Program-made: the position numbers and the translations under genes
In this document: positions 6,891 to 19,984 of the stretch, in pieces
Layout: each line of letters starts with the position of its first letter
How positions within the stretch are numbered: position 1 is the first letter of the stretch
Notes under the pieces: model-generated
The model's database searches: none
What the model was told of the DNA's origin: nothing
The model's input: the letters and a program-made list of their open reading frames with translations, nothing else
From: a virus
Virus record (IMG/VR): IMGVR_UViG_3300042344_000807
Span: 1 to 39,837 of that record
Direction: 5' to 3' (one strand)
Length of the DNA stretch: 39,837 bases

Positions 6891-7183
6891 TGAAGTTCGG
6901 CGAGTTCATGCTCCAACGTCGATTGGAACTAGGTCTATCAATAGCTTCGGTGGCCAGGTCAATCGGCGTGACCCACACGGCTCTATATTTGGTGGAGACC
7001 GGGAGAAGAAATTCGTTCCGCTCGAAGTACTGGCCCAGGATTGCCCACGTCCTAAAAACCAACACAGACTTCATCAGCACGCTCGAAGGAGCGCAATCTC
7101 TGGACTACCTACGAAGAAAAGTCGTTGAACTAGAACTGGAGATATCTTTCTTGAAGAAGCAACTGGAGGAAAAATGCTCCTGA
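6890..7183 (+). CDS. XRE-like helix-turn-helix protein with coiled-coil tail, 97 aa
   Basis: ATG 6890 overlaps the previous stop and has AAGGAGGG upstream. Residues 1-60 form a classic lambda-repressor-like HTH (LGLSIASVARSIGVTHTAL, then a helix with VETGRR). Residues 68-97 are a heptad-like helix (LRRKVVELELEISFLKKQLEE) suited to dimerisation. It probably binds operator DNA as a dimer and may control this early operon. It overlaps the next gene by 10 bases. Confidence 0.8.
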   Translation: MKFGEFMLQRRLELGLSIASVARSIGVTHTALYLVETGRRNSFRSKYWPRIAHVLKTNTDFISTLEGAQSLDYLRRKVVELELEISFLKKQLEEKCS

Positions 7184-7554
7184 TCGACAGGATGAAGGCT
7201 CGCGGTCTTTCCATCAAGGACGTCGCGCACATGGTGGGCACCGACCAGAGCGCCGTATGGCGCTGGGTCAAAGGCAAAACTTCTCCAAATCGTATGGCTC
7301 GGGCGCGTCTCGCGGAGCTCGGGTTGTACGATAACGAGGAAATCAAGGACGTCCCAGAGGTTCAACGAAGCACCCTGGAGCTCGTTTGCGAGCAACTCGC
7401 GACAATCCAGCAACTGCTGAAGGATGTCGCCAAGAGCCAGGAGATTGAAGAAGCTCTTCGTTGGTACGTCGAGCACGACGACTGCACTGAAGACGACGAA
7501 TATTACTATGAGGGCAAGGCCCGCGCGATGCGCTTGCTGGGCGACCGTGAATGA
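7174..7554 (+). CDS. helix-turn-helix DNA-binding protein, 126 aa
   Basis: ATG 7174 lies inside the end of the preceding HTH gene, with GGAGG upstream (7166-7170). The N-terminal 50 residues give a helix-turn-helix (RGLSIKDVAHMVGTDQSAVWRWV) with a KGKTSPNR wing-like tail, as in Cro/CI-type proteins. A helical linker follows (LELVCEQLATIQQLLKDV), and the acidic C-terminus contains a DDEYYYEGKARAM segment. Two HTH genes in tandem look like a repressor and antirepressor or a co-regulatory pair; which is which cannot be told. The final bases carry both the GTG start of the methyltransferase and the ATG start of its overprinted partner. Confidence 0.78.
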   Translation: MLLIDRMKARGLSIKDVAHMVGTDQSAVWRWVKGKTSPNRMARARLAELGLYDNEEIKDVPEVQRSTLELVCEQLATIQQLLKDVAKSQEIEEALRWYVEHDDCTEDDEYYYEGKARAMRLLGDRE

Positions 7555-8368
7555 GCTGGCTCTTTTCGCGGGCGCTGGTGGAGGCCTACTCGCCAGTCAC
7601 CTTCTCGGGTGGAAGACCATCTGCGCCGTCGAGAACGACCGGTTCGCCTCCGCCGTTCTTCTCGCACGGCAAAATGACGGCTCGCTTCCCCCGTATCCTG
7701 TCTGGGATGACGTGCGAACCTTTGACGGAAGAGCATGGCGAGGCCGTGTTGACGTCATATCTGGAGGCTTTCCCTGCCAAGATATATCCAGCGCAGGGAC
7801 CGGAACCGGAATCTCTGGACCCCGGTCTGGACTCTGGAAAGAAATGTCCAGAATCGTGGGAGAGGTACGACCTCGATTTGTCTTCGCTGAAAACTCGCCG
7901 CGGCTCCAAAAGCTCGGGCTTGAAGTCGTCCTGCGAGATCTTGCCGCCCTCGGGTATGATGTGGAGTGGGGCGTGCTGGGAGCATCCGATGTTGGCGCCC
8001 CCCACCTCCGCAAAAGGATCTGGATCGTCGCGCATACCCACGCCCACGGCCGGCGACGCGAAAGCGTCGGGGAGTCGGAATGCGGGGAGCAAAGCCAATC
8101 CTGGCATCAGCCTGACGGACTGGGTTCGGGGGGATGGCGGGACGGGCCGGACTCAGCCTGGTGGCAAGCTGAACCCAACGTGGGTCGAGTGGTTGATGAA
8201 CTGGCCTCTGGGCTGGACCAACTGCTACCAGGACATTCGAGAATCCCAGAGGATGTGGCTCCAAAGAACACTCGCCGCGCCCGACTCCGCGCCATTGGAA
8301 ATGGCCAAGTGCCCCTCGCCGCCGCAACCGCATTCCGAATCCTGGCCCGAAGAGGAGGATGGCTGTGA
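7547..8368 (+). CDS. C5-cytosine DNA methyltransferase, 273 aa
   Basis: It starts at GTG 7547, overlapping the upstream stop by 8 bases. Motif I is LALFAGAGGGLLASHLLGW. Motif IV is GGFPCQDIS, with the catalytic Cys near residue 77. ENSPRLQ (motif VI) and GAPHLRKRIWIVAH (motif VIII) follow, and RLRAIGNGQVPL is motif X near the C-terminus. The target-recognition region between VIII and X is short, with a WWQAEPNVGRV segment typical of compact phage Dcm-like enzymes. It should methylate cytosine at C5 in phage DNA, probably to evade restriction, since no cognate nuclease is present. Motif VI reads ENS rather than the usual ENV. A second gene is encoded in another frame over almost the whole length. 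Confidence 0.92.
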   Translation: MNELALFAGAGGGLLASHLLGWKTICAVENDRFASAVLLARQNDGSLPPYPVWDDVRTFDGRAWRGRVDVISGGFPCQDISSAGTGTGISGPRSGLWKEMSRIVGEVRPRFVFAENSPRLQKLGLEVVLRDLAALGYDVEWGVLGASDVGAPHLRKRIWIVAHTHAHGRRRESVGESECGEQSQSWHQPDGLGSGGWRDGPDSAWWQAEPNVGRVVDELASGLDQLLPGHSRIPEDVAPKNTRRARLRAIGNGQVPLAAATAFRILARRGGWL

Positions 8369-8372
8369 ATGA
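7551..8372 (+). CDS. overprinted protein in a different frame of the methyltransferase gene, 273 aa
   Basis: ATG 7551 overlaps the upstream stop as ATGA, the standard coupling in this operon. The frame is open for 822 bp across the methyltransferase gene. The product is not random: it opens MSWLFSRALVEAYS. It continues with LTEEHGEAVLTSYLEAFPAK, then SSLKTR, LPPSGMMWSGACW, IPTPTAGDAKASGS, and near the end LNPTWVEWLMNWPLGWT. I recognise this order (WLFSRALVEeYS, FPART, LPrSGM, TPTasD, NPxFVEWLMGWPxGWT) from a widespread family of uncharacterised phage proteins. The family's FPAR/FPAK lies exactly over the methyltransferase FPCQ, so dual coding seems conserved. The function is unknown. Confidence 0.72.
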   Translation: MSWLFSRALVEAYSPVTFSGGRPSAPSRTTGSPPPFFSHGKMTARFPRILSGMTCEPLTEEHGEAVLTSYLEAFPAKIYPAQGPEPESLDPGLDSGKKCPESWERYDLDLSSLKTRRGSKSSGLKSSCEILPPSGMMWSGACWEHPMLAPPTSAKGSGSSRIPTPTAGDAKASGSRNAGSKANPGISLTDWVRGDGGTGRTQPGGKLNPTWVEWLMNWPLGWTNCYQDIRESQRMWLQRTLAAPDSAPLEMAKCPSPPQPHSESWPEEEDGCE

Positions 8373-18539: not shown

Positions 18540-19334
18540 ATGGAGTTCAGAGACTCTTGCATCCTCGTGGTCGACACGGAGACCACGGGCAGTGACCCGA
18601 AGCAGGCGCGAATCGTCGAGATTGGCGGCGTCCTCTACGACCCGAAGGTTGGTCGCAAGGCGCTTCAGCGGTACATCAACCCGGGCTGCCCAATCCCACC
18701 CGAGGCGACTGCTGTACATAGAATCACTGACGCCATCGTCGCTGATTCGCCTGCATTCGCGGAGGTGGCCGAGGGTATCGCCGAGCGGTTCCGCTCGGCT
18801 GACGTGATTCTTGGGTACAACCTGCTCGACTACGACTTGCCCTTGATTGAGGCGGAGTTCGCTCGAGCTGGTATGCCCATCGTCATCGACCGCTCCAAGG
18901 TCATCGACCTGATCATCTTCGCTCGTTGGCACTTGCGGTCGATGCGCAGCCGGAAGCTCGGCGACGTCTGTGCGCACTACGAGATCGACCTCACCAACGC
19001 GCACAGCGCGAAGGCCGACGCGCTGGCGACGCATGACCTGCTCTACCACATGCTCGACGACGGTTTCCTTCCTTCGGACGTGCAGGAGGCCGTCGAGGTG
19101 CAGGCGAAGGCGGCTGAGCTCATCAAGACCGAGTCGGAGGCCTGGTCGTACTGGCTCTACCGCGACCGCAAGTTCCCCAGCGTCATTCGGGTAGGCGCAG
19201 GCAAGCACGTCGGGCGTCCCCTGAACGCGGTCCCGAAGGACTACATCAAGTTCATCCTTGAGAAGATGGAAGGGCTCCATCCAGGTGCCGAGGCGGCGTT
19301 TCGCGCTGAGCTTCGTGAGCGAGGTGCGAAGTGA
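18540..19334 (+). CDS. DnaQ-like DEDDh 3'-5' exonuclease, 264 aa
   Basis: ATG 18540 follows GGAGGTG and lies about 11 bases after the predicted transcription start. ExoI is VVDTETTGSD (Asp12, Glu14). ExoII is ILGYNLLDYDLPLI, and ExoIII is AHSAKADALATHDLL with the His-x4-Asp of the DEDDh class. This predicts a metal-dependent 3'-5' exonuclease acting on DNA or RNA ends, like DNA polymerase III epsilon or phage exonucleases. The C-terminal 90 residues (SEAWSYWLYRDRKFP...KHVGRPLNAVPKDYI) are an extra domain similar to that seen in exonuclease X-type proteins. Its stop overlaps the methyltransferase GTG. Confidence 0.9.
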   Translation: MEFRDSCILVVDTETTGSDPKQARIVEIGGVLYDPKVGRKALQRYINPGCPIPPEATAVHRITDAIVADSPAFAEVAEGIAERFRSADVILGYNLLDYDLPLIEAEFARAGMPIVIDRSKVIDLIIFARWHLRSMRSRKLGDVCAHYEIDLTNAHSAKADALATHDLLYHMLDDGFLPSDVQEAVEVQAKAAELIKTESEAWSYWLYRDRKFPSVIRVGAGKHVGRPLNAVPKDYIKFILEKMEGLHPGAEAAFRAELRERGAK

Positions 19335-19984
19335 GCCGGAAGAACACGCCAAGTGGCGGCACCGACTTCTACCCCACGCCTGCGTGGTGTGTGGACATCA
19401 TCATTCCCGAGGTCATCAAGGAGATTGGTCGAACCGTGATCGCGCGCAAGTCTGCGCGGCAGGAACTCGGCTGCATCTTCGAGCCCGGGGCTGGGAATGG
19501 CGTGATCTTGGAGCGTGTGGCTGATGCGCTCCGCCCCTTCGGCTACGACCACTTCTTGGGCAACGAGATCGACGAGTCGTTCGTGTCTGACTGCGAGATG
19601 CGCGGGATGCAGATGGAGGTCGGCGACTACTTGGGGATGCCGAAGGCGTCCCCGGTCATCGACCTGGTGGTGATGAACCCACCCTATGGTGGCGCCATGA
19701 ACACCGCGCAGAGGTTCATCGACAAGGCCATTCGCGAAGTCTGCGACGGCGGCGCGGTGTTCGTCCTGCTTCGAAGCAGTTGGTTGCTAGACGGCGCGAA
19801 GCGGCACGGACGGACAAAGTGGTTGAAGAATGATGTCGGGATGCCCACGAAAATCTTCGGGCTCACCCGCCGCCCTTCGTTCACCGGAAACAACAAGACG
19901 GATGGCGCTACCTACTGCTGGATGATGTGGCGCAAGGGGAACTTCCCCAAGACCATCGAGTACCAAATCCTGGAGGTTGAGTGA
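19331..19984 (+). CDS. N6-adenine DNA methyltransferase, 217 aa
   Basis: GTG 19331 overlaps the upstream stop as GTGA. FYPTPAWCVDIIIPEV and the SAM-binding FEPGAGNGVILE (motif I) are followed by VVMNPPYGGAM (motif IV, NPPY at residue 116) and a FTGN segment. This is the order of small phage Dam-like or Class I N6-adenine methyltransferases. It would methylate adenines in phage DNA, probably as anti-restriction, and together with the C5 enzyme at 7547 gives two modification activities without a nuclease. No target-recognition specificity can be read. Confidence 0.9.
   Translation: MSRKNTPSGGTDFYPTPAWCVDIIIPEVIKEIGRTVIARKSARQELGCIFEPGAGNGVILERVADALRPFGYDHFLGNEIDESFVSDCEMRGMQMEVGDYLGMPKASPVIDLVVMNPPYGGAMNTAQRFIDKAIREVCDGGAVFVLLRSSWLLDGAKRHGRTKWLKNDVGMPTKIFGLTRRPSFTGNNKTDGATYCWMMWRKGNFPKTIEYQILEVE

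Follow-up and report, generated by a model that had tools for sequence, protein, structure and literature searches.

A conserved gene overprinted on a phage C5-cytosine methyltransferase gene and its probable role as the second subunit of a split enzyme

The locus and its two reading frames

The window analysed here is the whole of IMG/VR record IMGVR_UViG_3300042344_000807 (39,837 nucleotides, a 39.8-kb record), which the portal, exonuclease and tail-fibre-like protein among its other genes mark as a tailed phage. Two open frames of 273 aa each, referred to below as M and W, occupy the same stretch of its plus strand. The features of the locus are as follows.

7174-7554, + strand: upstream ORF, HTH-regulator-like, whose stop overlaps the W start (sequence)
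7547-7554, + strand: dual start GTGAATGA, with the M GTG at 7547, the W ATG at 7551 and the upstream stop TGA at 7552-7554 (sequence)
7547-8368, + strand: frame M, putative catalytic (alpha) subunit of a C5-cytosine methyltransferase; GTG start; motifs I, IV, VI, VIII and X
7551-8372, + strand: frame W, overprinted gene (putative beta subunit) with a variable, recognition-like region and motif IX; ATG start
7556-7585, + strand: motif I of M (LALFAGAGGG; sequence); the same bases form the WLFSRALVEAY region of W
7763-7780, + strand: catalytic motif IV of M (GGFPCQ; sequence); the W frame here reads EAFPAK
8006-8032, + strand: motif VIII of M (LRKRIWIVA; sequence, HhaI alignment to residue 162)
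8022-8168, + strand: variable, indel-rich region of W (PTPTAGDAK...), with the lowest conservation and largest length variation in W; proposed target recognition
8169-8219, + strand: motif IX in W (LNPTWVEWLMNWPLGWT), assigned by HMM alignment, hhalign and column identity
8220-8281, + strand: extra spacer of about 63 nt between motifs IX and X; site of HNH ORFs in relatives
8282-8314, + strand: motif X of M (RLRAIGNGQVP; sequence, phrog_363 match to residue 266, AF2 helix 256-269)

An earlier note, made from the letters of the window, had placed both ORFs at these coordinates, and its description of the locus holds throughout. The ATG of W does lie on the TGA of the upstream ORF, as ATGA, an arrangement that makes translational coupling between the HTH-regulator-like ORF and the W start possible. 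The methyltransferase motifs that it listed for M are all present, motif VI as ENS and motif X as RAIGNGQVP, as is every peptide that it quoted from W; FPAK lies over the catalytic FPCQ codons at an offset of one base. Elsewhere in the window, a second DNA methyltransferase-like gene is found at 19331-19984 (phrog_799, E=1.5e-26).

Frame M as an incomplete C5 methyltransferase

Frame M matches PF00145 (E=3.4e-35) over residues 5-170 only, the match stopping at 168/324. Motifs I, IV (PCQ), VI (ENV/ENS) and VIII occur in order, in columns that are invariant in A4, and M aligns with HhaI and HaeIII only as far as motif VIII (HhaI: through residue 162). In the AF2 model of A4, residues 1-164 are confidently predicted and correspond to the C5 large domain, and the motif X helix at 256-269 is likewise confident; residues 175-251 are mostly disordered, mostly with pLDDT <50. 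The best PDB matches returned by Foldseek for the M model were M.HaeIII (1dct, E=1.8e-14) and M.HhaI. Motif X follows motif VIII in the M frame of the window, and neither motif IX nor a recognisable target-recognition domain was found in M, either in the PF00145 match or in the AF2 model. The absence of motif IX from M, on which the earlier note did not comment, is the key to the identity of W.

Conservation of frame W

To gauge W independently of its own sequence, loci were collected from IMG/VR by frame M alone: all 80 contained a W match in the same register, and 75 of them were non-redundant. As a null model, synonymous codons were shuffled gene by gene, leaving the M protein and its codon usage unchanged. 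Against this null, W was stop-free in 74 of the 75 non-redundant loci (1.7 expected) and contained a single stop in all (265 expected), while the third frame held 803 stops against 700 expected. In the codon alignment of 74 genes, mean W identity was 0.435 (shuffles: 0.274); of the 238 W columns, 150 exceeded every one of the 200 shuffles and none fell below. Shared ancestry inflates such conservation counts, yet the M of the window is only about 50-60% identical in protein sequence to that of most of the loci. For the window by itself, synonymous shuffles of M gave P about 0.009 for an open W frame, with 3.4 stops expected. Codon-position counts in close pairs, which contain too few changes, have W changing faster than M, so that the constraint on W would be the weaker of the two.

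The second frame is thus both open and conserved beyond the effect of the first, which is the pattern of dual coding. A conserved overprinted gene had been suggested in the earlier note, to be abandoned if the second frame proved unconserved across aligned methyltransferase homologues; W turned out to be open in these homologues, conserved beyond what M explains, and furnished with a conserved start codon of its own. On these sequence comparisons, we regard it as essentially certain that W is a second real gene and that the locus is a case of overprinting.

Start codons and initiation

The start codon of W falls largely within codon 2 of M, and usage at that codon is highly restricted. Among 84 non-redundant genes, asparagine was encoded as AAT in 74/74 cases (background 32%), arginine as CGT in 8/8 (background 6%) and histidine as CAT in 2/2, so that W always receives an ATG or a GTG. 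Among loci with the +4 offset, the first codon of W was ATG in 88 and GTG in 10, accounting for all 98. The first 60 residues of W are also conserved above the null (0.516 vs 0.327). A Shine-Dalgarno test at the M start found a modest excess only (68/84 vs 50.8 expected).

The initiation region reads GTGAATGA in the window and ATGAATGA in many relatives. Either form probably serves as a single initiation region for both proteins, which would couple their amounts. In the window the upstream stop codon lies inside this region, and reinitiation could therefore supply both the M and the W starts.

Motif IX and a putative recognition region in W

Searches of Pfam and NCBIfam with W gave no family match. 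Among the PHROG families, W matches phrog_1008 ('DNA methyltransferase', E=3e-15), and W proteins also match phrog 26627, 35493 and 27243, which carry no description. The best conserved block of W, LNPxWVEWLMGWPxGWTDL, aligned in frame to RRLTPLECERLQGFPDGWTD of a single-chain C5 methyltransferase in an HMM/profile alignment; the single-chain segment RRLTPLECERLQGFPDGWTDI, which the W profile pairs with this block, stands directly before motif X. When the W alignment was compared by hhalign with 24 single-chain C-termini, the same pairing was recovered (E=5e-5), although at 67% probability and over 30 columns only, so that motif IX is called from a short alignment; when A2 (12 type-B rows) was used instead, the comparison was not significant. 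Column identity in W at this block is 0.71 against 0.28 in the null. We take the block to be motif IX.

Directly before motif IX lies the part of W that is most variable in both sequence and length. It behaves as a target-recognition region would, and may well be one. A near relative of the window, L001, carries a 24-codon in-frame insertion in this variable region, another PTPTSSENNY-type repeat, with both frames still open, which suggests turnover of the recognition region.

Structural prediction for W alone was poor (AF2 pLDDT 60, pTM 0.30), as might be expected if the subunit folds on its partner; the model had no fold match in the PDB, and a PDB sequence search with W profiles returned no C5 methyltransferase and nothing relevant. 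The earlier note assigned W no function; taken together, these results point to W as the motif IX and target-recognition subunit of the same enzyme, rather than an unrelated overprinted protein.

Motif X and HNH-like ORFs

Motif X was found in M only at 190 loci, in W only at 24 and in both at 0, with no call by pattern at 20; some of the loci counted are near-copies. In fifteen loci of the W type (type B), the stretch between motifs IX and X contains a third-frame ORF that resembles HNH endonucleases:

L003, 3258-3614
L009, 3174-3521
L041, 3318-3629
L033, 2688-3017
L039, 3000-3455
and ten more type-B loci

These ORFs carry a CxxC-HH-N-H pattern, and five of six scanned matched PF01844 at E about 1e-3 to 1e-2, below the cut-off of Pfam. 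At these loci M stops near the HNH-like ORF, and W continues through to motif X. Across the HNH-like ORF, W is open at 15 of 15 loci, where 0.09 were expected, and contains 0 stops against 86.5; two frames thus carry protein in that stretch. In the tree, type-B loci with such ORFs are found at scattered positions. Most simply, a homing insertion would have displaced the frame downstream of it, and motif X would thereby have moved from M to W with the enzyme kept.

The distance between motifs IX and X is 116 nt in the window, compared with 53 nt in nearly all of 113 loci. The window has no HNH ORF, and its W has the LMN variant that is common in loci with one. Its spacer (8220-8281) reads NPRGCGSKEHS in the third frame, faintly like the start of an HNH zinc finger. 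It is possible, if speculative, that the spacer is the scar of a lost insertion.

A different irregularity is seen in L109 (2501-3640), where M changes frame at a PDQTR tandem repeat and enters the motif IX of W; this is either a natural fusion of motifs I-VIII with IX or a sequencing slip.

Distribution of W

Searches with W profiles and patterns recovered relatives in phages of Salmonella, Acinetobacter, Vibrio, Klebsiella, Mycobacterium, Microbacterium, Streptomyces, Synechococcus, Microcystis, Bacteroides and Porphyromonas. Further relatives reside on plasmids (cyanobacterial, Streptomyces, Bacteroides, Leptospira, Acinetobacter, archaeal and others), including one of a methanogenic archaeon, and in bacterial genomes and prophages of many phyla. 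The overprinted gene had been attributed to phage methyltransferases; this is correct for phages, but the family also extends to prophages and plasmids of many phyla. In more distant loci, W can be recognised only in its core (about residue 65 onward).

Of the 225 loci classified, 222, among them the loci recovered with W alone, have a +1-frame overlap between W and a C5 methyltransferase; W is a stand-alone gene in none of the 225. One of the three exceptions is the Dcm control. The other two, L037 and L040, were considered as same-frame fusions and rejected; they appear to be type-B loci or fragments in which the motif X profile of M hits the W ORF.

No W was found in another frame of E. coli Dcm and 27 relatives, nor in the full-length single-chain C5 enzymes from ten genomes in which overlap loci are also present. 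Among 60 relatives of one single-chain enzyme, 52 had no W and four (L322, L325, L326 and L334) had a weak, partial W-like +1 frame (E 1e-4 to 1e-7). These four are related to single-chain C5 methyltransferases, and their W-like match ends before motif IX; they are possibly intermediate forms.

In a tree of the catalytic part, the 117 W-bearing genes form one clade (97/92), in an analysis whose bootstrap fell short of full settling and which contains several long branches. L131, from the E. coli PCP07014 prophage, is annotated as a pseudogene with an internal stop; the interruptions of its M and W frames lie almost together (around 2864).

Comparison with known systems

M.EcoHK31I is a two-polypeptide C5 methyltransferase that acts at YGGCCR; according to Lee, Kam and Shaw in 1995, its 176-aa beta subunit is reportedly read in another frame within the gene of the 309-aa alpha subunit. 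The beta gene of M.AquI is essentially separate, unlike the beta frame described here, which overprints alpha. In M.EcoHK31I, motifs I-VIII and X are on one (larger) polypeptide and IX is on the other (smaller), with the target-recognition domain predicted in alpha; M.AquI is split between I-VIII and IX-X (PMC3404938). The window resembles M.EcoHK31I in having motifs I-VIII and X on its first predicted polypeptide and IX on its second, and we liken the two by this distribution of motifs alone. It differs in that its beta, which begins 4 nt downstream of the alpha start, covers the gene essentially from end to end, in that its variable region lies beside motif IX in W, and in that its family is phage-borne and spread across many phyla. 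The M.AquI arrangement is not that of the window, where motif X is in M, but is shown by the 24 type-B relatives, which have both IX and X in W.

The type-B relatives also recall the ShiLan-type insertions of actinophage DNA methylases, in which, in the part of that report drawn on here, an HNH is likewise hidden out of frame in a phage methylase gene; there the second frame is the inserted HNH only, and that part mentions no W-like subunit (PMC11855218). PHROGs 1008, 26627, 35493 and 27243 hold W-type proteins as families of their own, under descriptions that lack a function or a link to the overlapping catalytic gene. The literature searched, in which few subscription papers were included, contained no description of this overlap in phage methyltransferases; an overlap so nearly complete, its distribution and the switching of motif X between the two frames appear to be undescribed there.

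Proposed enzyme and alternative readings

M and W, in our view, are likely to form a split C5 methyltransferase on the plan of M.EcoHK31I, M being the alpha and W the beta subunit. M would provide the AdoMet-binding and catalytic core (motifs I-VIII) together with motif X, while W, one base out of phase and starting 4 nt downstream, would contribute motif IX and the variable recognition region, along with a conserved part for docking. In such a heterodimer, M would bind AdoMet and catalyse, W would supply recognition and motif IX, and the two would jointly methylate cytosine within a specific sequence, presumably shielding phage DNA against host restriction. Translation of W, its pairing with M, methylation and protection are predictions of this reading.

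Were W instead a real overprinted protein with a function outside methylation, for example an inhibitor, a regulator or a host-takeover protein, one might expect what is seen of its first part, as W ahead of the variable region (about residues 1-150) has no known homologue and W alone does not model as a C5 methyltransferase domain. Such a protein, however, would not readily account for a W that never occurs apart from the methyltransferase, whose best conserved block is the very motif IX absent from M, and with which M exchanges motif X such that the two never both carry it; we consider a separate function improbable.

Slightly less probable still is a programmed frameshift out of M, yielding a fused enzyme to which M gives motifs I-VIII and W gives IX (and X). 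A single shift would restore the full motif order at loci with X in W, and the M frame of L109 does enter the motif IX of W. Yet W is provided with a start codon of its own, conserved and 4 nt downstream of that of M, its first 60 residues are conserved although they would be useless in a fusion, and the common type, with motif X in M, would need two shifts.

The least plausible reading, an accidental frame held open by GC content and the conserved motifs of M and repeatedly mis-annotated, may draw on the window-only P value and on further long spurious ORFs in the GC-rich window, but is ruled out by the shuffles that keep the M protein and codon usage, which reject it at the level of locus, column and start codon, and is at odds with the single-chain C5 methyltransferases, nearly all of which, among those tested, are without W.

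With the two-subunit reading preferred, we further favour, with rather less assurance, the view that such split C5 methyltransferases make up an old class spanning many phyla, whose catalytic subunit is overprinted along its whole length by the recognition subunit. In this class, out-of-frame HNH insertions between motifs IX and X would repeatedly have passed X across the subunits, and all three forward frames would be coding in some loci.

Implications

It is rare for two conserved proteins of bacteria or tailed phages to be overprinted over a long stretch of the same strand. Here, a single enzyme would be split over two frames in phages, prophages and plasmids of many phyla, and only its M half is recognised by Pfam and NCBIfam. 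Annotation usually keeps one frame and drops the other, so in databases many phage proteins named 'DNA cytosine methyltransferases' are probably only half of an enzyme, and cloning a recoded version of the annotated frame, such as gene synthesis routinely produces, would destroy the second subunit. The locus would also offer a clean test of co-evolution between two proteins that share every base.
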